From: Methylobacter sp.
Lineage (GTDB): Bacteria > Pseudomonadota > Gammaproteobacteria > Methylococcales > Methylomonadaceae
Reading direction: 5' to 3'
DNA length: 64,000 nt
NCBI GenBank assembly: GCA_030679035.1
Contig: JAUXTH010000050.1
Location: forward strand, 1-64,000
Shown piece by piece: positions 30,861 to 41,919 of this stretch. Under the pieces are notes generated by a model, which was not told the DNA's origin, ran no database searches, and was given only the letters and a program-made list of their open reading frames with translations. How positions within the stretch are numbered: the stretch's first letter is position 1; the number at the start of each line of letters is the position of its first letter. The position numbers and the translations under genes were made by a program.

Positions 30861-32015
30861 GTGAAGAAAACAAAGCAACTGTTCGCAGGTCTGATCTTAA
30901 TGGCTTTTGGCCTAGGGACAGCACAGGCGGAATATACGCTCAATTTGATGAAAGGGGTTACAAAGGTCAGTAATGACATTTATGACCTACACATGCTAAT
31001 TCTATGGGTGTGTATATTCATAGGTATTGGTGTGTTCGGGACTATGTTCTACTCGATTTACCATCATCGTAAATCAAGAGGACATAAAGCGGCGCAGTTT
31101 CATGAAAATACCACGGTTGAAATCATTTGGACGATCATCCCAACCTTGATTTTGATTGGCATGGCTATTCCAGCCACAAAAGCCATGATGGAATTGGATG
31201 ATGTGCAGGAATCCGAAATGTCCATTAAGGTAACTGGGCATCAGTGGAAATGGGAATATGAATATCTTGATAATGGAATTCATTTTTTCAGCAGCTTGGA
31301 TGAAGCCAGTAATAAAGTGCGTCAGGTCGGTTCAGGTTTAGATCCGAGATCGGTTCCTAATTACTTACTGAATGTCGATAAGCCTTTAGTTATTCCAACT
31401 AAAAAGAAAATTCGTTTTGTATTTACCTCGGCAGACGTCATCCATTCATGGTGGGTGCCGGATTTGGGCTGGAAAAAAGACACTAATCCTGGTTTTATTA
31501 ATGAATCATGGACTTCTGTAGACGAGCCGGGAACTTATCGCGGTCAATGTACCGAACTTTGCGGTAAGGATCATGGCTTTATGCCGATTGTTGTGATTGC
31601 AATGAACGAGCCTGACTACAATGCTTGGGTGGAAAAACAAAAAGCGGCTGTAGCGGCTGAAGCTGGTTCGGCAAGCAAGCAGTGGGCTACTGAAGAGCTG
31701 GTTGCTAAAGGTAAATCAGTTTATGAGACCAACTGTTCATCTTGTCATATGGCGGATGGCGCCGGCTTGGCGGGTACATTTCCTGCTATCAAGGCAAGTA
31801 AAGTGGTAACCGGCGATATTAACGCACAAGTTAAGCTAATGTTGGACGGAAAAGGCATGATGCCTGCGTTCGGAAAAATGTTAAGCCCAGTTGATTTCGC
31901 GGCAGTCGTAACATATACCCGTAATGGTTTGGGTAACTCAGTGGGTGATTCTATTCAACCTTCAGCTATCCAGACTCTGCAATCGGCAACACCGGCGGCA
32001 GGTAAAAATGAATAA
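30861..32015 (+). CDS. coxB: Cytochrome c oxidase subunit II with C-terminal cytochrome c domain
   Basis: CuA site GQCTELCGKDHGFMPIVV; CSSCH haem motif. Confidence 0.97.
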   Translation: MKKTKQLFAGLILMAFGLGTAQAEYTLNLMKGVTKVSNDIYDLHMLILWVCIFIGIGVFGTMFYSIYHHRKSRGHKAAQFHENTTVEIIWTIIPTLILIGMAIPATKAMMELDDVQESEMSIKVTGHQWKWEYEYLDNGIHFFSSLDEASNKVRQVGSGLDPRSVPNYLLNVDKPLVIPTKKKIRFVFTSADVIHSWWVPDLGWKKDTNPGFINESWTSVDEPGTYRGQCTELCGKDHGFMPIVVIAMNEPDYNAWVEKQKAAVAAEAGSASKQWATEELVAKGKSVYETNCSSCHMADGAGLAGTFPAIKASKVVTGDINAQVKLMLDGKGMMPAFGKMLSPVDFAAVVTYTRNGLGNSVGDSIQPSAIQTLQSATPAAGKNE

Positions 32016-32069
32016 GTCATTGCGTTCTTATCGATCTAATCTTTTTTATATATTCAAGAGGTATGAAAT

Positions 32070-33677
32070 ATGTCTGCTGTAGTCGCTGAACATGATGATC
32101 ATCACGATCATGGCCCTGCTAAGGGGCTCTTAAGATGGGTTATTACCACCAATCATAAAGATATCGGCACGTTATATTTGCTGTTTGCTCTGGCAATGTT
32201 TTTTGTCGGCGGCGCAATGGCAATGGTTATCCGTGCCGAATTATTTGAACCGGGTATGCAGTTTGTTAATCCCCAGTTCTTTAACTCAATGACCACCATG
32301 CACGCCTTGGTTATGGTATTCGGTGCAGTAATGCCTGCATTCGTCGGCTTGGCCAACTGGATGATTCCAATGATGATTGGCGCTCCGGATATGGCATTGC
32401 CGCGGATGAATAACATGAGTTTCTGGATGCTGGTTGCCGGTGTTTTATTGTTGGCCAGCACCTTGTTCATGGAAGGTGGCGCGCCTGCCAGTGGTTGGAC
32501 TTTGTATCCGCCATTAGTATTGCAAACCGGTAAGGCATTGCCTTTTGCGATTTTCTCGGTGCATTTGCTGGGTATCTCGTCAATCATGGGCGCTATTAAT
32601 ATCATTGCCACTATTTTCAATATGCGTGCCCCCGGCATGACCTTAATGAAAATGCCGATGTTTGTTTGGACTTGGTTGATTACTGCTTTCTTGTTAATCG
32701 CTATCATGCCTGTTTTTGCGGGTGCAGTGACCATGCTGTTAACAGACAAATTTTTTCACACCAGCTTTTTTGATGCTGCGGGTGGTGGTGATCCGGTTCT
32801 TTATCAACACATTTTTTGGTTCTTTGGGCATCCCGAAGTTTATGTAATGATTCTGCCTACTTTCGGCGTGGCTTCTACCATTATTCCAGTGTTTGCACGC
32901 AAACCGTTGTTTGGCTACAGCTCAATGGTTTATGCGACTGCTTCAATTGCATTTTTGTCATTTATCGTTTGGGCTCACCACATGTTTACGGTGGGTATGC
33001 CGATAGCTGGCGAGTTGTACTTCATGTATGCAACCATGTTAATTGCAATTCCTACCGGGGTTAAAGTTTTTAACTGGACTGCGACCATGTGGAAAGGTTC
33101 GATGACTTTCGAAACGCCTATGTTGTTTTCGATTGCTTTCGTCGTTTTGTTTACGATGGGTGGATTCACCGGTTTGATGATGTCTGTTGCACCCGTTGAT
33201 TTTCAGTATCACGATACTTACTTTATTGTTGCGCATTTCCATTACACATTGGTTCCAGCTTCTGTCTTTATATTGATGGCTGCCGGTTATTTTTGGCTGC
33301 CTAAATGGACCGGGCATATGTATGACGAAAGAATTGGCAGGTTGCATTTCTGGTTATCTGTAGTATCGGTCAACATCTTGTTTTTCCCTCAACATTTTCT
33401 GGGGCTTGCCGGTATGCCGCGCAGAATTCCAGATTATGCCGTTCAATTTGCGGATTGGAATATGATTTCCAGTATTGGCGGTTTTATATTCGGCGCCAGC
33501 CAACTGCTGTTCCTGTATATTGTTATAGATACGATAAAAGGTGGAACCGGCGAAAAAGTAACTGATGAAGTGTGGGAAGATGCTGCCAAGCATAGCTTGG
33601 AGTGGACTTTGCCATCACCACCGCCGTATCATTCTTTTACTACACCACCTACAGTGATACCTACTGAGCATATCTAG
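32070..33677 (+). CDS. coxA: Cytochrome c oxidase subunit I
   Basis: Canonical; WFFGHPEVYVMILP, VAHFHYTLV. Confidence 0.99.
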   Translation: MSAVVAEHDDHHDHGPAKGLLRWVITTNHKDIGTLYLLFALAMFFVGGAMAMVIRAELFEPGMQFVNPQFFNSMTTMHALVMVFGAVMPAFVGLANWMIPMMIGAPDMALPRMNNMSFWMLVAGVLLLASTLFMEGGAPASGWTLYPPLVLQTGKALPFAIFSVHLLGISSIMGAINIIATIFNMRAPGMTLMKMPMFVWTWLITAFLLIAIMPVFAGAVTMLLTDKFFHTSFFDAAGGGDPVLYQHIFWFFGHPEVYVMILPTFGVASTIIPVFARKPLFGYSSMVYATASIAFLSFIVWAHHMFTVGMPIAGELYFMYATMLIAIPTGVKVFNWTATMWKGSMTFETPMLFSIAFVVLFTMGGFTGLMMSVAPVDFQYHDTYFIVAHFHYTLVPASVFILMAAGYFWLPKWTGHMYDERIGRLHFWLSVVSVNILFFPQHFLGLAGMPRRIPDYAVQFADWNMISSIGGFIFGASQLLFLYIVIDTIKGGTGEKVTDEVWEDAAKHSLEWTLPSPPPYHSFTTPPTVIPTEHI

Positions 33678-33689
33678 GGTGATGCATTT

Positions 33690-33713
33690 CAGGTTGCTTT
33701 AAAAAGCAACCTG
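33690..33713. repeat. Intra-operon hairpin downstream of coxA
   Basis: CAGGTTGCTTT-AA-AAAGCAACCTG. Confidence 0.75.
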
Positions 33714-33738
33714 CTTAGATAACGTATCAGGTGAAATA

Positions 33739-33837
33739 ATGAATACCAAACAAAAAAATATTTTGACAGCAGTGATTTTGATTTCAATTGCGGTCACCAT
33801 TTATGTTTTTGCAGTGATAAGAGCTGTTTCTCAATGA
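33739..33837 (+). CDS. 32-aa small membrane protein of cox operon (absent from ORF track)
   Basis: [32 protein letters not shown]; stop overlaps the ctaG start (ATGA); one TM helix. Confidence 0.8.
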
Positions 33838-34376
33838 AGGAAGGCGTTACTCAAAAAAATGCCAAGTTAGTTCGGACATTGGTATTTGTTGTATTGGGAA
33901 TGTTTGGTTTTGGCTATGCTCTGGTTCCACTTTATGATGTTTTGTGTGAAGTAACCGGACTCAATGGAAAAGTCGAATCGTCTGCTGTTAAGGAAGTCAG
34001 CTACGAAGTTGATAAAAACAGGGAGATCACTGTAGAATTTATGACTGCGCTGAATGAGGCTACACCGATGGTGTTCCGTTCAGAAATAAATAAAATAAAG
34101 GTTCATCCGGGTGAATATGTAACGGTGAATTTTTATGCGGAAAATAAGACCGATAAAGTAATGGTTGCACGGGCAATTCCAAGTATTTCGCCCGGAGCGG
34201 TTGCTGAATTTTTTAAAAAAACAGAGTGTTTTTGTTTCTCAGAACAGACATTTAAAGCGCGAGAAGGCAGAACCATGCCAGTGCGTTTTGTTGTTAATCC
34301 TGAAATTCCTAAGGAATATAAAACAATCACACTTGCGTACACATTTTTTGATAATACTGAAACATCAGTGAAATGA
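33834..34376 (+). CDS. ctaG: Cytochrome c oxidase assembly protein CtaG/Cox11
   Basis: [26 protein letters not shown]. Confidence 0.96.
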
Positions 34377-34388
34377 GAGAGGAAGGTC

Positions 34389-35252
34389 ATGTCTACAAGT
34401 AACGAGTATTACATTCCGCATAAAGCTACCTGGCCGGTCATTGGCACTGCCGGATTGGTGATGATGCTGGCTGGATTTGCAAATTATTTAAATGGCGCAG
34501 CAGCCGGTTCGGCCTGGATGGCATTAGGGTTGACCGTTTTTATTGTTATGCTTGCCGGGTGGTTCACACTACAGGCCGGGGAAAGTGAATCAGGCATGTA
34601 CAGTACACAGGTAGGTATTTCCTATCGTATGGGCATGATGTGGTTTATCTTTTCAGAAATCATGTTTTTTGCTGTTTTCTTTGGTACGCTTTGGTATACA
34701 CGTAATTTATCGGTGCCTTGGTTAGGCGGTGAAGGTACAAGAGCGGCAACTAAAGAAATGTTGTGGCCTACCTTTGAAGCAGTCTGGCCGACCAACGGTC
34801 CAGGTAAAGTTGGTGGTGAATTTGAGCCTATGGGGGCATGGGGTTTGCCTTTTCTGAATACCTTGATTCTGTTGACCAGCGGCGTAACCTGCACTTGGGC
34901 GCATCATGGCTTGCTTGCCAAAAATCGTGACCAATTGATTAAAGGTTTGGCGGCTACTGTAGGCTTAGGCCTATTGTTCGTGTCTTTTCAGGCCTTCGAG
35001 TATCATGAAGCTTATACCGAAATGGGCTTAACTTTGGGTTCAGGTATTTACGGCTCTACTTTTTTCATGTTGACCGGCTTTCACGGTTTTCATGTCTGCA
35101 TAGGCGCTATTATCTTAAGCGTTGTGTTGTTCCGCAGTTGGAAAGGCCACTTCAAACCGGAAAATCATTTCGCATTTGAAGCCGCAGCATGGTACTGGCA
35201 TTTTGTTGACGTGGTATGGTTAGGATTGTTTGTCTTCGTTTATGTAATTTAA
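34389..35252 (+). CDS. coxC: Cytochrome c oxidase subunit III
   Basis: Canonical COX3; FHGFHVCIGAIIL, WYWHFVDVVWLGLF. Confidence 0.98.
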   Translation: MSTSNEYYIPHKATWPVIGTAGLVMMLAGFANYLNGAAAGSAWMALGLTVFIVMLAGWFTLQAGESESGMYSTQVGISYRMGMMWFIFSEIMFFAVFFGTLWYTRNLSVPWLGGEGTRAATKEMLWPTFEAVWPTNGPGKVGGEFEPMGAWGLPFLNTLILLTSGVTCTWAHHGLLAKNRDQLIKGLAATVGLGLLFVSFQAFEYHEAYTEMGLTLGSGIYGSTFFMLTGFHGFHVCIGAIILSVVLFRSWKGHFKPENHFAFEAAAWYWHFVDVVWLGLFVFVYVI

Positions 35253-35270
35253 TCGAAACAGCCGTACCGA

Positions 35271-35307
35271 AAAAAGCGCTGTCTCACACAGACAGCGCTT
35301 TTTTTTT
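35271..35307 (+). terminator. Rho-independent terminator after coxC
   Basis: AAAGCGCTGTCT...AGACAGCGCTTTTTTTT. Confidence 0.85.
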
Positions 35308-35340
35308 GTCGGGATGATTGAGATGGATTTGAAAAAATGG

Positions 35341-35494
35341 AACACGGATGACACGGATGACACGGATGACACGGATTTTAATGGATAAGCACGGATAGAA
35401 GGGGTTTAAACGGATTTTTTAAAGCTGAAACAAAGCTTGTTATGCGTTTTTAATCAGTAATTATCCGTCTAATCAGTGTCATCCGTGTTCCGAT
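35341..35494. repeat. Inverted-repeat element with tandem 9-mer (A/G)ACACGGAT x4
   Basis: aacacggat gacacggat gacacggat gacacggat (35341-35376) and inverse gtcatccgtgttcc near 35478-35491. Confidence 0.8.
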
Positions 35495-35516
35495 TATAAA
35501 TAGTTATGAGTTGTTT

Positions 35517-35765
35517 TTATTTGACTGGGGCGGTTGGTGCTTGGTGCATTCGAGCTCCCAGCCCGTGAGGCGTGATCATACCGGTTGCTAAGGCGATAAA
35601 AATGAATATGAATAATACAATTGACAGGGTAATGCGAAAGGTCAGCGCTTTGACTGTTTTTCCGGATTGTTCCTGGGGCTTGTGTTTAATCAGATGAAAT
35701 AGCGCAGAACCCAGGCTGATAATGATCAGGATAAAGGCGATAATAACGATGCTTTTTATAATCAT
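35517..35765 (-). CDS. Twin transmembrane protein (DUF2909-like)
   Basis: Two TM helices; position between coxC and surf1. Confidence 0.75.
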   Translation of the reverse strand: MIIKSIVIIAFILIIISLGSALFHLIKHKPQEQSGKTVKALTFRITLSIVLFIFIFIALATGMITPHGLGARMHQAPTAPVK

Positions 35766-35859
35766 AAATAGTGATATGGTTGTCGGCTAAGGTTTTAGTA
35801 TTCTCGGTTATTTAGGTGCCGGTGCCAATAGGGTAAAGAAAAAAAGCAGATGTTAGTTT

Positions 35860-36570
35860 ATGAAGTTTAAAGTCATTCCAACTTTGGCTTATTTATGCCT
35901 GCTGACGGTGTTGCTTGCGTTGGGTATGTGGCAATTAGACCGCTCAGAACAGAAACGAGTGTTGCTCCAGTTGCAGGAACACGCGGGCGCAACGCAAATC
36001 CTGAAGTTGTCTGCGACTATTGAAGACAAAGCAGATGCGCTCAGATACAGGCAGGTCGAGGTTTCAGGGCGTTACGATGTGACGCACCAGTTCTTGATAG
36101 ACAATCAAATCAGTGGCGGCAAGGCTGGGTATTTTGTGTTGACTCCGTTGGTATTGACCGGAGAAGCCAAGGCTGTTCTGGTGAACAGAGGCTGGATTCC
36201 GCAAAACCCGGATCGGACAGTACTGCCTGATTTGCAGATTAACAACGCGGAAACAATTATTAGCGGACGGATTAATAATTTCCCCAGCGTTGGTATAAAA
36301 TTAGCAGGGGCGGAAATTCCAACAGCGGCTTGGCCATCGGTAGTGCAGGTGATTGACGGTGATGTTTTAGCTAAAAAGCTTGGCTATTCATTATTTCAAT
36401 TCCAGCTTGAGCTGGACAAAGAATTGCCTGGTGGATTTAAACGGGAGTGGCGCACATCAACTGTTATGCTGCCCGAACAACATACGGCCTATGCAATTCA
36501 GTGGTTTGCATTGGCATTGACACTAACGATACTGTTTATTTGGTATAGCTTTAAAAAGAATGATGCATAA
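35860..36570 (+). CDS. SURF1 family cytochrome oxidase assembly protein
   Basis: LALGMWQLDRSEQKR, VLVNRGWIPQNPDR, YAIQWFALALTLTILF. Confidence 0.94.
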   Translation: MKFKVIPTLAYLCLLTVLLALGMWQLDRSEQKRVLLQLQEHAGATQILKLSATIEDKADALRYRQVEVSGRYDVTHQFLIDNQISGGKAGYFVLTPLVLTGEAKAVLVNRGWIPQNPDRTVLPDLQINNAETIISGRINNFPSVGIKLAGAEIPTAAWPSVVQVIDGDVLAKKLGYSLFQFQLELDKELPGGFKREWRTSTVMLPEQHTAYAIQWFALALTLTILFIWYSFKKNDA

Positions 36571-37159
36571 TCAAAAGAATAAAAACCACCTATTAATCCT
36601 GGCCATTTTTGGGATGTCGGTTATTCCCTTTCTGATCGCTTGGGGGCTAAAAGAACATCCGCAGCTGTTAAACGGGCAAACTAACCACGGGCAGTTAATC
36701 ATCCCGCCTCAGATGACAGAGCGCGCCGATCTGAGCGGTTTCGACCAGTTTTCAACCGATAATATGGCCGAGCTTACCGGGCATTGGCTGCTGGTAAACG
36801 TCATACCAAACGGTGAGTGCAATGAAGCCTGTATTGAAGCAATCCATAAAACCAAACAAATACGGCTGATGTTAAATAAGGAGTTGACCCGTACGCGCCG
36901 AATAGTGCTGGTATTAAAAGAGGTTGCTCCGGAAACTGCAAGCAAATGGTGGGAAGACGACCAGACCTTATTAAGAGTCAAGCCCAATGACGCCGTCGCC
37001 AAGAAAATTGCGGCAATCAGGCAAGGCAACATCCCTGACGGGATGCTGTTGTTAATGGATCCTCTGGGTAATTTGATGATGCAGTATGAGCCTGGGTTCG
37101 ATCCTTACAATGTAAAAAGCGATCTTATGCATCTTTTGCGAATCTCACAAATCGGATAG
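36560..37159 (+). CDS. Membrane-anchored SCO-like/thioredoxin-like protein of cox cluster
   Basis: N-terminal TM then WLLVNVIPNGECNEACIEAIHKTKQIRLMLNKE. Confidence 0.7.
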   Translation: MMHNQKNKNHLLILAIFGMSVIPFLIAWGLKEHPQLLNGQTNHGQLIIPPQMTERADLSGFDQFSTDNMAELTGHWLLVNVIPNGECNEACIEAIHKTKQIRLMLNKELTRTRRIVLVLKEVAPETASKWWEDDQTLLRVKPNDAVAKKIAAIRQGNIPDGMLLLMDPLGNLMMQYEPGFDPYNVKSDLMHLLRISQIG

Positions 37160-39162
37160 TGGAAAATAAAATGTTTAAAAAAATAACTCTCTTTAGCGTT
37201 GTCTTAGCTTTAATAGTTATCGTAGTCGGTTCATACGTCCGGTTATCCGGGGCGGGGTTGGGCTGTCCTGATTGGCCTGGATGTTATGGGCAGGCCATAG
37301 TAAGCGATCACGCCGATTTTAAGACGCAGGCGGCGGAAGCTTTTCCGGGTCAGACTCCCGATATTGCCAAGGCCTGGAAGGAAATGAGCCATCGTTATCT
37401 AGCAGCAACCTTGGGCATCGCTATCCTGTTGCTGGCGCTACTTTGCTGGCGTGAACAACAAAACCGTTTTGCGGTTATCACGGCTTCATTGGGTTTGGTG
37501 CTTTTGGTTGGATTGCAGGCAGCCTTAGGCATGTGGGCCGTAAAACTGCATGTGATGCCGATTGTAGTAACCGGCCATTTGTTGTTGGGCATGATGACTT
37601 TCTGGCTGCTGTTCTGGCTGTATTTGCGGGTTAAGCCTAAAGCTTCGCTGTTAACCGTGCGCAGCAATGGATTGGCTTGGTTTGCCCGGGTTGCAATGGG
37701 CGTGCTGTTTTTAGAGATTGTTTTGGGCGGCTGGGTCAGCGCTAACTATGCTGCTTTAGCCTGTTCGGGATTTCCTAATTGCAATGGCTCATGGTGGCCT
37801 ACAGCCGATTATCGAACGGCGCTGGACTTATTTAACGGATTAAGCACCGGTTATACCGGCGTCATCGCATTCGATGCGCAGGTTGCCGCAAACTGGCTGC
37901 ATCGAGTCGGTGCGCTGGTTAGTTTTATCGTGCTCACCTTGTTGATGCTGAATGCAACATCGGCGCACCATCCAAAACCGGTCAGACGCGCAGGCTTATG
38001 GCTGAGCGTGCTGCTGTTGGCTCAGATCGGCTCAGGCATAGTCGGCATTAAACTGGGGGCGCCTTTATGGGTTGCTGTCGCACATAATGCGTTTGCCGCC
38101 TTGTTGATGTTGCCGTTGATTGCGATCAGTTTTTACAGTCGAAAGGCTTATGCTGAAGAGCTAAAACCAGCCGTAGAAGTTGAGCAAGCGGAAGGCGCAG
38201 TTGTTCCAGCAGCGGAAGAAGCTTATCAGATACCGGAACCCGAGTCGCTCTACCTGCGCCTTAAGACTCAGTTAAAGCGTACCCGTTCCGGCCTTAGCGG
38301 GGTATTGGCGCATATTCCTCTGGGTCGACAAGAAATTGACAGGGATTTGCTAGAAGAAATTGAAGCCAGTTTGTTGATGGCTGATATAGGCGTTGATGCG
38401 ACCACGGAAATCATCAAGCGCTTAACTGAAAGTGTGGAACGTCACCAGCTCAATGACGGCGAGGCTTTATCCGCCGCCTTAAAGCAGGAGCTGCTGAGCA
38501 TGCTACAGCCGTGTAGCAAGAACCTGCATATTCCCAAACAGGACAAGCCTTTTGTTATCCTGGTCGTCGGCGTCAATGGGGCGGGTAAAACCACTACCAT
38601 CGGCAAACTGGCCAAACGCCTTCAGGCGCAAGGCCATAGCGTCATGCTGGCCGCCGGTGATACCTTTAGAGCCGCGGCTGTCGAGCAATTGCAAACCTGG
38701 GGCGAGCGCAATAACATCCATGTCGTGGCTCAGCATACCGGAGCCGATTCGGCATCGGTCATTTATGATGGCGTGCAATCCGCGCAGGCCAAAGGCATTG
38801 ATGTGTTGATTGCCGATACCGCCGGACGCCTGCATACCAAATCCAACCTGATGGATGAATTGAAAAAAGTAAAACGCATTATCAGCAAGCTGGATGAAAC
38901 TGCGCCTCATGAAGTGCTATTGGTATTGGATGCCGGTACCGGACAAAACGCCTTGTCGCAGGCAAGACTGTTTAATGAAACCGTGGCGTTGACTGGTTTG
39001 GCGCTGACCAAGCTCGACGGCACGGCAAAAGGCGGTATTATTTTCGCGCTGGCCAAACAGTTCAACATTCCGATTCGTTTTATTGGAATAGGCGAGGGCA
39101 TTGATGATCTGCAGGATTTTGATGCAGAGGCTTTTGTAAACGCATTGTTTGTCAAAGACTAG
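37159..39162 (+). CDS. Heme A synthase (COX15/CtaA) - FtsY fusion protein
   Basis: Residues ~1-330: 8 TM COX15 with MSHRYLAAT, TGHLLLG, WLHRVGA, AHNAFAA; residues ~365-667: SRP receptor NG domain (VVGVNGAGKTTTIGKLA, GDTFRAAAVEQL, DTAGRLH, TKLDGTAKGG). Confidence 0.95.
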   Translation: MENKMFKKITLFSVVLALIVIVVGSYVRLSGAGLGCPDWPGCYGQAIVSDHADFKTQAAEAFPGQTPDIAKAWKEMSHRYLAATLGIAILLLALLCWREQQNRFAVITASLGLVLLVGLQAALGMWAVKLHVMPIVVTGHLLLGMMTFWLLFWLYLRVKPKASLLTVRSNGLAWFARVAMGVLFLEIVLGGWVSANYAALACSGFPNCNGSWWPTADYRTALDLFNGLSTGYTGVIAFDAQVAANWLHRVGALVSFIVLTLLMLNATSAHHPKPVRRAGLWLSVLLLAQIGSGIVGIKLGAPLWVAVAHNAFAALLMLPLIAISFYSRKAYAEELKPAVEVEQAEGAVVPAAEEAYQIPEPESLYLRLKTQLKRTRSGLSGVLAHIPLGRQEIDRDLLEEIEASLLMADIGVDATTEIIKRLTESVERHQLNDGEALSAALKQELLSMLQPCSKNLHIPKQDKPFVILVVGVNGAGKTTTIGKLAKRLQAQGHSVMLAAGDTFRAAAVEQLQTWGERNNIHVVAQHTGADSASVIYDGVQSAQAKGIDVLIADTAGRLHTKSNLMDELKKVKRIISKLDETAPHEVLLVLDAGTGQNALSQARLFNETVALTGLALTKLDGTAKGGIIFALAKQFNIPIRFIGIGEGIDDLQDFDAEAFVNALFVKD

Positions 39163-39180
39163 AAAATCGTTCATAAAAAT

Positions 39181-39282
39181 GGAACACGGATGACACGGAT
39201 TAGGCGGATAATCACTGATTTAAAAGTGTGTGGCATTTTTAAAAAACCGCGTAAATCAGTCCAATCCGTGTCATCCGTGTTC
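39181..39282. repeat. Inverted-repeat element between ftsY and ftsE
   Basis: GGAACACGGATGACACGGATT...AATCCGTGTCATCCGTGTTC. Confidence 0.85.
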
Positions 39283-39338
39283 TATTAATCATAATAATCA
39301 GCGTTCTATTTTGGGCTGTGGGGTAGTACAAAAAACCT

Positions 39339-40013
39339 ATGTTAAAGTTCGATAATGTCAGTATGAGGTACCCTGGAGCAGGCGATGTGTTGCGCAATGT
39401 CAGTTTTCATCTGGCGCGTGGTGAGATGGCTTTTCTGACCGGACATTCAGGTGCCGGAAAAAGCACGTTGTTGAAATTGATTGCGCTGATCGAGCGTTGC
39501 AGCCGTGGGCAGGTTTTACTGGACGGCGAAAGCCTCAACTTAGCTAAAGACAGACAGGTTCCTTACCTACGCAGGAAAGTGGGTTTGATTTTCCAGGATT
39601 ACAAGCTGCTGCAGGACAGGACGGTTTTCGATAACGTGGCATTGCCGCTAGTGATAGCTGGTTACGGACATAATGAGGTTTCCCGAAGAGTGCGGGCATC
39701 ATTGGATAAAGTCGGGCTATTAGGTAAAGAAAAAAAATACCCTGCTGTCTTATCCGGCGGCGAGCAGCAGCGGGTCGGGATTGCCAGGGCGGTCGTTAAT
39801 AAGCCGCCGATGATTCTGGCCGATGAACCGACCGGAAATCTTGATCCGGAATTGTCCACTGAAATCATGCATTTGTTCGAGCAATTCCAACAGGTCGGCG
39901 TTACCATATTCATTGCCTCCCATGATATTTCATTGATTGCTCAGATGAACCATCGAATATTAAAGCTGGATCACGGTCAACTGGTTGGCGAGTTAAATGA
40001 TGAAACACGTTAA
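39339..40013 (+). CDS. ftsE: Cell division ABC transporter ATP-binding protein
   Basis: GHSGAGKSTLLKLI, SGGEQQRVGIARA; order ftsY-E-X-rpoH. Confidence 0.97.
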   Translation: MLKFDNVSMRYPGAGDVLRNVSFHLARGEMAFLTGHSGAGKSTLLKLIALIERCSRGQVLLDGESLNLAKDRQVPYLRRKVGLIFQDYKLLQDRTVFDNVALPLVIAGYGHNEVSRRVRASLDKVGLLGKEKKYPAVLSGGEQQRVGIARAVVNKPPMILADEPTGNLDPELSTEIMHLFEQFQQVGVTIFIASHDISLIAQMNHRILKLDHGQLVGELNDETR

Positions 40014-40995
40014 TAAAAAACCGGGTAAACAGGAGCCGCGCTGGCAAACCAAAATCTCCGGCGGTAATTTTGTCGATAAATTCCACGCTTATCGGAACCA
40101 TCATGCGCAAGCGTTGTTTTCAAGTCTGGGACGATTGGTCGCGTCGCGATTCTCATCGGCAATGACCATAGTGGTTTTGGCGATTGCCATTTCACTGGCG
40201 ACCGGCTTTTATATCCTGGTGGCGAACCTTCAGCAGTTGGCGGGCAATTTGGAAGCCAGCAATCAAATCTCATTATTCCTTAAAGATGACATTTCCGAGG
40301 CCAGGACAAACAAGTTTGTAAATAGCATCAAGCAAAATCCTGATGTCCAGGACGTAAAACTCATTACCAAGGAACAGGCGCTGGCAGAGTTCCAATCCTA
40401 CAGCGGTTTCGGTGAAGCAATAAAAGCCCTGGAAAAAAATCCGCTGCCGGTAGTCATTCAGGTGCAGCCCAAAAATTCATTGGAAAACGAGCAGGCGCTT
40501 CAGGCTTTGCTCGAGGATTTTAGCCGGTCGGCGGAAGTGGATTTTGCTCAGTTGGATATGCAATGGGTTAAGCGCCTAAAATCCATTATGGAGGTGGTGC
40601 GGTGTGGCGTTTTCTTATTGAGCTTGTTGCTGGGGGCGGGAGTGCTGTTTATTACCGCCAATACCATACGTCTGGAATTATATAACCGGCGTGACGAAAT
40701 CGTGATCGCCAAGCTGGTGGGCGCGACCAATGGCTTCATTTGCAGACCTTTTTTGTACGGTGGATTCTGGATCGGCTTTTTTTCCGGCGTCGCGGCATGG
40801 TTTATTGTTACGGTGATCATGTTGATTTTGAGGCAGCCGGTCGAAACACTTTCCCGGCTTTATGATAGCGCTTTTCATGTGCTGTTTTTGGGCTTTACTG
40901 AAACATTAGCATTGTTGTTTATCTCATCCGTATTGGGCGTGGTGGGTTCATGGATAGTGCTGCATTTCCAACTTCGACAATTAAAACCCGAGTAG
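39997..40995 (+). CDS. ftsX: Cell division permease-like protein
   Basis: FtsX topology and synteny. Confidence 0.95.
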   Translation: MMKHVNKKPGKQEPRWQTKISGGNFVDKFHAYRNHHAQALFSSLGRLVASRFSSAMTIVVLAIAISLATGFYILVANLQQLAGNLEASNQISLFLKDDISEARTNKFVNSIKQNPDVQDVKLITKEQALAEFQSYSGFGEAIKALEKNPLPVVIQVQPKNSLENEQALQALLEDFSRSAEVDFAQLDMQWVKRLKSIMEVVRCGVFLLSLLLGAGVLFITANTIRLELYNRRDEIVIAKLVGATNGFICRPFLYGGFWIGFFSGVAAWFIVTVIMLILRQPVETLSRLYDSAFHVLFLGFTETLALLFISSVLGVVGSWIVLHFQLRQLKPE

Positions 40996-41003
40996 AAAAA
41001 TTA

Positions 41004-41030
41004 TTAGCACTCTTGCGTGCAGAGTGCTAG
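41004..41030 (+). promoter_or_regulatory. CIRCE-like HrcA operator upstream of rpoH
   Basis: TTAGCACTC-ttgcgtgca-GAGTGCTAG, one mismatch to TTAGCACTC-N9-GAGTGCTAA. Confidence 0.88.
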
Positions 41031-41061
41031 AATTTGAAAAAAATCTTACAAGGGGGTTTCA

Positions 41062-41919
41062 ATGAGTAACGCATTAGCTTTACCCGTTAATTTATCGGTC
41101 GGAACATTCGACGCCTATTTGAATGTCGTCAGGCAAATGCCTAAATTGACAGTAGAGCAGGAACGCGAGTTAGCCTTAAAATTTAGGGATAACGGTGACT
41201 TGGAAGCCGCACGCGAATTGGTGATGACCAATCTGCGCTTTGTGATTCATGTTGCCAGAGGCTACAGCGGTTATGGCTTGTCTATGCCGGATATTATCCA
41301 GGAAGGCAATGTTGGCTTGATGAAAGCCGTTAAACGCTTTGATCCTGACGTCGGCGTGCGTTTGGTCTCTTTCGCCGTACACTGGATTAAAGCCGAAATT
41401 CACGAGTATGTGATCAAAAACTGGGGCATCGTAAAAGTTGCGACCACCAAGGCGCAGCGCAAGCTGTTTTTTAACCTGCGTAAATCGAAATCGGATTTGG
41501 GCTGGTTATCCAATGACGAAGCGGTGGCGATTGCCAAAGATCTTGATGTTGATGTCAGTACCGTTTACGAAATGGAAAAGCGTCTTGGCAGCAGGGATAT
41601 GTCGTTTGATATGCCTGTCGACGAAGCAACGGAAGAAAGCTATGTTGCTCCGGCCAGCTATCTTCATCAGCACGGCGCTGATCCTGCGGTGCTGCTTGAG
41701 AATTCGGATTGGGTGGGGCATGAGCAGGATTTACTGGCTGATGCGATGGCGGAGCTGGACGAGCGCAGTCTGGACATTCTGTCGAGTCGCTGGCTGGTGG
41801 ACAAAAAAGCCACCTTGCATGAGCTTGCCGAACGCTACAATGTGTCAGCCGAGAGAATCAGACAGCTGGAACAAAATGCGATGAAAAAATTGAGGGCGGC
41901 AGTTGAACTTGCCGCTTGA
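41062..41919 (+). CDS. rpoH: RNA polymerase sigma-32 factor
   Basis: VARGYSGYGLSMPDIIQEGNVGLMKAVKRFDP; ftsEX-rpoH synteny. Confidence 0.98.
   Translation: MSNALALPVNLSVGTFDAYLNVVRQMPKLTVEQERELALKFRDNGDLEAARELVMTNLRFVIHVARGYSGYGLSMPDIIQEGNVGLMKAVKRFDPDVGVRLVSFAVHWIKAEIHEYVIKNWGIVKVATTKAQRKLFFNLRKSKSDLGWLSNDEAVAIAKDLDVDVSTVYEMEKRLGSRDMSFDMPVDEATEESYVAPASYLHQHGADPAVLLENSDWVGHEQDLLADAMAELDERSLDILSSRWLVDKKATLHELAERYNVSAERIRQLEQNAMKKLRAAVELAA

Follow-up and report, generated by a model that had tools for sequence, protein, structure and literature searches.

What becomes of an SRP receptor, and of a respiratory enzyme, when the two are translated as one protein? This question is raised by the window, the stretch of 64,000 nucleotides of Methylobacter sp. 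DNA analyzed here, in which an uninterrupted open frame at 37159-39162 encodes CtaA and FtsY in one chain. FtsY is the near-universal SRP receptor of bacteria and is normally peripheral, and both the sufficiency of stable membrane attachment and the role of its A domain have long been debated. From the comparisons described below, we consider it probable (roughly 0.75) that the sole SRP receptor of nearly all Methylococcales is a permanent membrane-integral protein with a CtaA-derived anchor that probably binds heme b.

The fusion gene and its distribution

Pfam models placed COX15-CtaA at 9-318, SRP54_N at 389-445, and SRP54 at 464-664 of the window protein, and the NCBIfam model of FtsY (TIGR00064) scored 373.7 bits against a cut-off of 260.7. 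The single uninterrupted frame and the complete FtsY N and G domains described in a sequence-only reading of this DNA were thus upheld. Of its 667-codon frame, the openness stands and the start does not: initiation at the ATG is more likely than at the upstream GTG (Table 1), because the N-terminus MF[RK]KITLF is conserved among relatives. In an AlphaFold2 model built with 34 homologues (mean pLDDT 75), the protein has eight long membrane helices, the alphaN1 helix, and an NG fold, with a disordered linker at residues 326-357 of the 663-aa form. The best Foldseek matches of the NG part were FtsY-NG structures, with E. coli FtsY at a TMt of 0.88 and ~59% identity over the NG structure. A phmmer alignment to the solved Bacillus subtilis CtaA (6a2j) placed E57, H60, H123, C191, C197, H216, and H278; residue checks against this structure covered all listed positions but C35/C42. 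Four histidines, both cysteine pairs, and E57 are all present, so that the window protein has the eight membrane helices, Cys pairs, His ligands, and E57 of a type 1B heme A synthase. The model and the alignment bear out the eight transmembrane (TM) segments and four histidines that had been read from the letters.

Table 1. Positions of the fusion gene, its domains and key codons, and the neighboring genes in the window
Feature	Position	Strand	Remark
ctaA::ftsY fusion gene	37171..39162	+	663 aa from ATG; genome's only ftsY
ctaA::ftsY alternative start	GTG 37159	+	667 aa
CtaA N-terminal (substrate, heme o) half, TM1-4	37171..37653	+	intact here; lost in most relatives
C35/C42 codons	37264-37266 and 37282-37284	+	N-half
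E57 codon	37381-37383	+	N-half
H60 codon	37390-37392	+	N-half
H123 codon	37576-37578	+	N-half
CtaA C-terminal (heme b cofactor) half, TM5-8	37654..38136	+	kept in nearly all fused proteins
C191/C197 codons	37762-37764 and 37780-37782	+	C-half
H216 codon	37900-37902	+	C-half
H278 codon	38083-38085	+	C-half
Cytoplasmic linker RKAYAEELKPAVEVEQAEGAVVPAAEEAYQIPEPES	38140..38247	+	occupies place of FtsY A domain; predicted disordered
FtsY alphaN1 amphipathic lipid-binding helix LYLRLKTQLKRTRSGLSGV	38248..38304	+	retained; role from PMC5533587
FtsY N + G domains	38323..39150	+	N = Pfam 38323-38493; G = 38548-39150
Cox cluster upstream of fusion	30861..37159	+	gene order in the following six rows
coxB	30861	+	upstream cox cluster
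coxA	32070	+	upstream cox cluster
cox11	33834	+	upstream cox cluster
cox3	34389	+	upstream cox cluster
surf1	35860	+	upstream cox cluster
SCO-like gene	36560-37159	+	stop 11 nt 5' of fusion ATG
ftsE	39339-40013	+	downstream of fusion
ftsX	39997-40995	+	downstream of fusion
rpoH	41062-41919	+	downstream of fusion (block 39339..41919)

A genome search recovered the full-length fusion across the genus, the family, and the order (61 genomes; 311 genomes of the order). Among the loci analyzed from families f1 to f6, many of them from metagenome-assembled genomes (MAGs), all 139 distinct Methylococcales proteins were fused in frame (a raw tally of 140 rows holds the window copy twice). Named isolates with the fusion are Methylobacter tundripaludum SV96, M. 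marinus A45, M. luteus, Methylotuvimicrobium buryatense 5G, and Methylovulum miyakonense. In families f7 and f8, ctaA and ftsY are separate, and the fused genomes in a class sample of 369 all belong to Methylococcales. The fused set was monophyletic (support 92) in a quick tree of the FtsY domain, on which one change suffices and no confirmed reversal was found; the fusion arose once. Methane oxidation is not simply tracked by the fusion, because the unfused f7/f8 also carry PF02461 (AMO/pMMO).

That the joined frame is an assembly or annotation artefact has a vanishingly small probability. The window assembly is a draft of 216 contigs, but the fusion also occurs in closed or near-closed genomes and named isolates (G019, G032, G039, L045, L047, and L057), and chance and assembly error are both excluded because the frame is conserved across an order. 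A stop in related genomes and a separate ftsY, which the sequence-only reading had named as grounds for rejecting the fusion, were both looked for: the fused architecture is common to the relatives, and the window genome has one FtsY with no unfused copy. Six loci of the fused clade that had seemed unfused (L025, L030, L067, L070, L147, and L157) were in frame across the junction when inspected. The frame is broken in only two loci of this clade, both in draft MAGs with fused close relatives: L150 (G484) has a TGA in TM8, and L290 (G467) has a frame change in the linker; these may be errors or may mark a recent fission. Elsewhere in the class, long open frames upstream of ftsY (G147, G198, G325, G343, G380, and G394) encode no TM domain and are A-domain or non-genic open frames.

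The gene order points to how the junction formed. In the unfused f7/f8, coxB-coxA-(cox11)-cox3-surf1-SCO-ctaA-ctaB faces an oppositely oriented rpoH-ftsX-ftsE-ftsY; in a fused f6 locus (L153), cox...SCO-ctaA::ftsY-ftsE-ftsX-rpoH faces ctaB. The two orders fit a single inversion next to the cox cluster, in which the segment ctaB...rpoH-ftsX-ftsE-ftsY was turned around and the fusion created; its break points would lie where ctaA ends (3') and where ftsY starts (5'). The earlier proposal of a rearrangement joining the cox cluster to ftsY-ftsE-ftsX-rpoH therefore holds, and the synteny fits an inversion. As had also been noted, ftsE rather than ctaB follows in the window; the inversion would account for the absence of ctaB behind ctaA. 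In f6 and in G020, ctaB lies downstream in convergent orientation, and a search of the window genome located a stand-alone copy (G000:C58).

A palindromic intergenic repeat (core AATCCGTGTCATCCGTG) lies between ftsY and ftsE at 39178-39285 and is predicted to form a highly stable hairpin (-52.8 kcal/mol, z -8.2), with related copies between cox3 and surf1 at 35343-35487. Exact copies were present in only three fetched loci, L001 (the window), L006, and L031, the latter two probably representing one relative, and the repeat is therefore probably a recent REP/MITE-like insertion.

Constraint on the CtaA domain

In heme A synthase, the substrate heme o presumably occupies the N-half (H60, H123, and the catalytic E57), where a Cys pair is important for activity, and a low-spin heme b the C-half (ligands H216 and H278), whose Cys pair is dispensable for heme A synthesis (PMC12808453). 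We scored these residues in the fused proteins. The catalytic set E57, H60, and H123 was complete in 33/139 and incomplete in 106/139; for example, the substrate half is dead in Methylotuvimicrobium buryatense 5GB1 (H60R, H123Q), whereas the triad is intact in Methylobacter tundripaludum. By contrast with this decay of the substrate half, H216 and H278, the ligands of the heme-b module, were both present in 138/139 proteins, and C191 and C197 in 137/139. All nine residues were kept in 36/36 unfused CtaA controls (30 from the class and six from f7/f8). When only losses were counted, E57 was lost 27 times, H60 24 times, and H123 23 times, compared with two losses each of C191 and C197 and one each of H216 and H278; a count that permits reversals gives 16 triad changes. 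Separate triad losses number about 16-26. Alignments of degenerate N-halves are uncertain, and residue losses were also checked by local context.

The same inversion of constraint was seen in other measures. In close pairs, Nei-Gojobori dN/dS values, rough because dS was near 1, were 0.14 in the N-half when the triad was intact versus 0.29 when it was lost; they were 0.11 and 0.12, respectively, in the C-half, and 0.03-0.04 in FtsY. Some alignment columns never vary in unfused CtaA; the ones that triad-lost fused proteins retain (0.97-0.99) were chiefly C202, P206, C208, H248, R249, and H309, a second numbering in which H248 and H309 are the heme ligands, R249 is the following Arg, and C202/C208 form the disulfide. 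Their retention was.99 for H248,.97 for R249,.99 for H309, and.98 for both C202 and C208; the same test gave 0.11 for E75, 0.52 for H78, and 0.50 for H140. In short fused forms of 564-570 aa, the N-half is smaller by ~90 residues and lacks two TM helices. The remaining number of TM helices, six, is even, and the FtsY end is therefore cytoplasmic.

Two exceptions were found on the heme-b side. L085 (Methylovulum MAG FW215_bin.51) has lost H216, H278, C191, and C197 (Y, gap, Y, and N) and keeps E57 and H60, a reverse pattern; it is the only fused protein to lose the ligands and this Cys pair together. In L157/L297 (G029, genus g8), the CtaA part is too divergent for the Pfam model and C191/C197 are absent, but a multi-TM domain is still in frame with FtsY and both His ligands aligned. 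Because of L157 and L085, the heme site is not absolutely required.

A search for a second ctaA in the window genome located a stand-alone gene (L208, G000:C207:43957-44925). It is of another type, with an H60N substitution, described as type 1.3 (PMC8239418), and without the second Cys pair; in the 12 kb around it, no cox, surf1, or ctaB query gene adjoined it. Such a second CtaA was found in 127 genomes of the fused families. Almost every fused genome has one, whereas the listed f7/f8 genomes have none. E57, N60, H123, H216, and H278 were kept in 46/46 scorable copies. Once acquired, this gene may have allowed the fused copy to decay. G040 (f5) yielded no CtaA other than the fused domain, which is intact. 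In G514, listed as 99% complete, the fused CtaA (L289) has no E57, and no second CtaA was detected.

These results bear on the proposal, also made from the sequence alone, that the fusion might couple SRP targeting to sites of oxidase assembly. An active fused CtaA could bring SRP-delivered CoxA to the heme A supply, and the position of the gene in the cox cluster, the whole catalytic set in the window protein and 32 others, and the intact sole CtaA of G040 would agree with this. However, the triad is incomplete in most fused proteins even though coxA clusters persist (e.g., L151 and L057), almost every fused genome has another CtaA whose active-site set is consistent, and the idea would not explain why the fusion is conserved across the order. 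We regard a bifunctional enzyme-receptor as an unlikely general account: coupling through an active heme A synthase finds no support across the fused family, because the triad decays while the fusion and the heme-b half persist. In the window species, where the triad is intact, such coupling may occur, and the enzyme half may still make heme A, giving a bifunctional protein. Given the triad decay and the second CtaA that almost every fused genome has, heme A synthesis is not the lasting function of the fusion. About three-quarters of the fused "heme A synthase" domains probably lack this activity.

Alternatively, the fusion might be an accident without benefit, locked in by the essentiality of ftsY, with CtaA as a passive anchor and its C-half conserved merely as a neighbor of FtsY that must fold. 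The single origin without a confirmed reversal, the tolerated catalytic decay, and the function of TM-anchored FtsY derivatives in E. coli (PMC2780400) are in line with this. Yet a plain anchor needs neither heme ligands nor the following Arg nor a disulfide, all of which are retained while most other TM residues drift in triad-lost proteins, and the N-terminal TM helices, which might have been lost altogether, seldom are. A purely neutral origin and persistence thus appears somewhat doubtful to us, and a heme-binding anchor is preferred.

FtsY and its attachment to the membrane

Each genome had one match above the FtsY cut-off, the other match being Ffh, which leaves the fused protein as the sole SRP receptor. 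The window genome also encodes Ffh (G000:C16) and 4.5S SRP RNA (G000:C59). By analogy with what is known of FtsY, the fused receptor would be essential.

E. coli FtsY functions only once it has reached the membrane, FtsY of some Gram-positives has a true TM helix (PMC2780400, PMC6022935), and FtsY derivatives tethered by a TM segment are functional in E. coli (PMC2780400). In the fused proteins, the NG chain is predicted to carry an N-terminal TM segment of eight helices, or six in the short forms, which supports the expectation that any FtsY made from the window gene would be membrane-tethered. The suggestion that a peripheral membrane domain had been replaced holds in part. The A domain is replaced, by a linker that is 28-59 aa long in relatives, but the amphipathic lipid helix alphaN1 is retained in nearly all members, with positions R/L/K/Q/L/T/R/G conserved in the 139 fused proteins, and the peripheral binding element is therefore not lost. 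In known FtsY, alphaN1 mediates a stable lipid-bound mode that the A domain restrains (PMC5533587).

Free FtsY might instead be made by internal initiation or by proteolysis in the linker, with the fusion serving translational coupling only. E. coli FtsY is cleaved in its A domain according to a 1999 paper as cited in PMC6022935, and a Met in TM8 is common (99/139). The window linker, however, contains no ATG, GTG, or TTG start codon, which extends the earlier statement that it lacks in-frame ATG and GTG and that the nearest ATG (38107) is inside TM8. In the 139 fused proteins, internal starts in the linker occupy no conserved position and only 3/139 have a strong Shine-Dalgarno core, a pattern that argues against internal initiation. 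Translational coupling would also not require a stop-free frame across the order. We consider two separate products improbable, although proteolysis could conceivably release some soluble FtsY.

The preferred reading, a receptor permanently integrated through CtaA, suggests the following course. In the ancestor of f1-f6, the inversion would have put ftsY in frame behind ctaA, and the 8-TM CtaA domain (N-in, C-in) would have taken over membrane anchoring from the A domain. The alphaN1 helix and NG would still run through the usual SRP cycle, with Ffh and 4.5S RNA as partners, while the CtaA domain would hold NG permanently at the membrane, making FtsY membrane-integral in vivo. Heme A synthesis by the fused domain would have become dispensable because nearly all lineages carry a second, stand-alone CtaA. 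The substrate half may then have decayed repeatedly, with the heme-b half (H216/H278 and the disulfide loop) staying under purifying selection as part of the receptor. This half presumably binds heme b in vivo and may have been retained for the fold of the anchor or since the heme state influences the receptor, which would give heme b a structural or a redox role in targeting. The C-half might serve purely as a stable anchor that requires heme to fold and regulates nothing. More tentatively, the state of the heme or the disulfide might regulate or gate co-translational targeting; a heme- or redox-responsive SRP receptor recycled from the cofactor half of a heme A synthase would then exist, a conjunction that we hold as a speculative possibility.

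Comparison with known systems

Integral FtsY and CtaA-CtaB fusions are already known. In the open-licence literature searched, we found no published CtaA-FtsY fusion, order-wide fixation of one, or retention of its heme-b half, and these three features appear to be new. If the preferred reading is true, an essential targeting machine gained a heme-bearing membrane anchor. The Methylococcales, mostly methane-eating bacteria and an order with laboratory strains that are open to genetic manipulation, would represent an order-wide natural experiment that hard-wires the sole FtsY to an integral protein, and the loss of the enzyme with retention of the heme site is a testable hint of a role for heme b in protein targeting. 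Correcting the annotation of these "heme A synthase" domains matters when methanotroph respiration is inferred from genomes.

With a type 1B heme A synthase (CtaA/Cox15, stand-alone or CtaB-fused), the window protein shares the whole 8-TM domain; it differs in that the partner is FtsY rather than CtaB and that in most relatives the catalytic half is degenerate and the heme-b half kept. With E. coli FtsY, it has the alphaN1, N, and G domains in common, whereas the acidic A domain and N-terminal lipid motif are replaced by CtaA and the linker. In the eukaryotic SRP receptor, SRalpha is tethered by the integral GTPase SRbeta. There, too, the homologue is held permanently at the membrane by an integral component, but the anchor of the fusion is in the same chain, is not a GTPase, and is not known to be homologous to SRbeta. 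A membrane-integral FtsY of Actinobacteria and some Gram-positives was reportedly described by Bibi et al. in 2001. As in the fusion, NG is carried there on a transmembrane N-terminus, which is a hydrophobic N-terminal segment or TM helix (PMC6022935, PMC2780400). The anchor of Methylococcales FtsY, unlike the Actinobacterial one, has eight TM helices, derives from an identifiable heme enzyme, and conserves a heme-b site, and its homology to CtaA argues against a shared origin of the two anchors.
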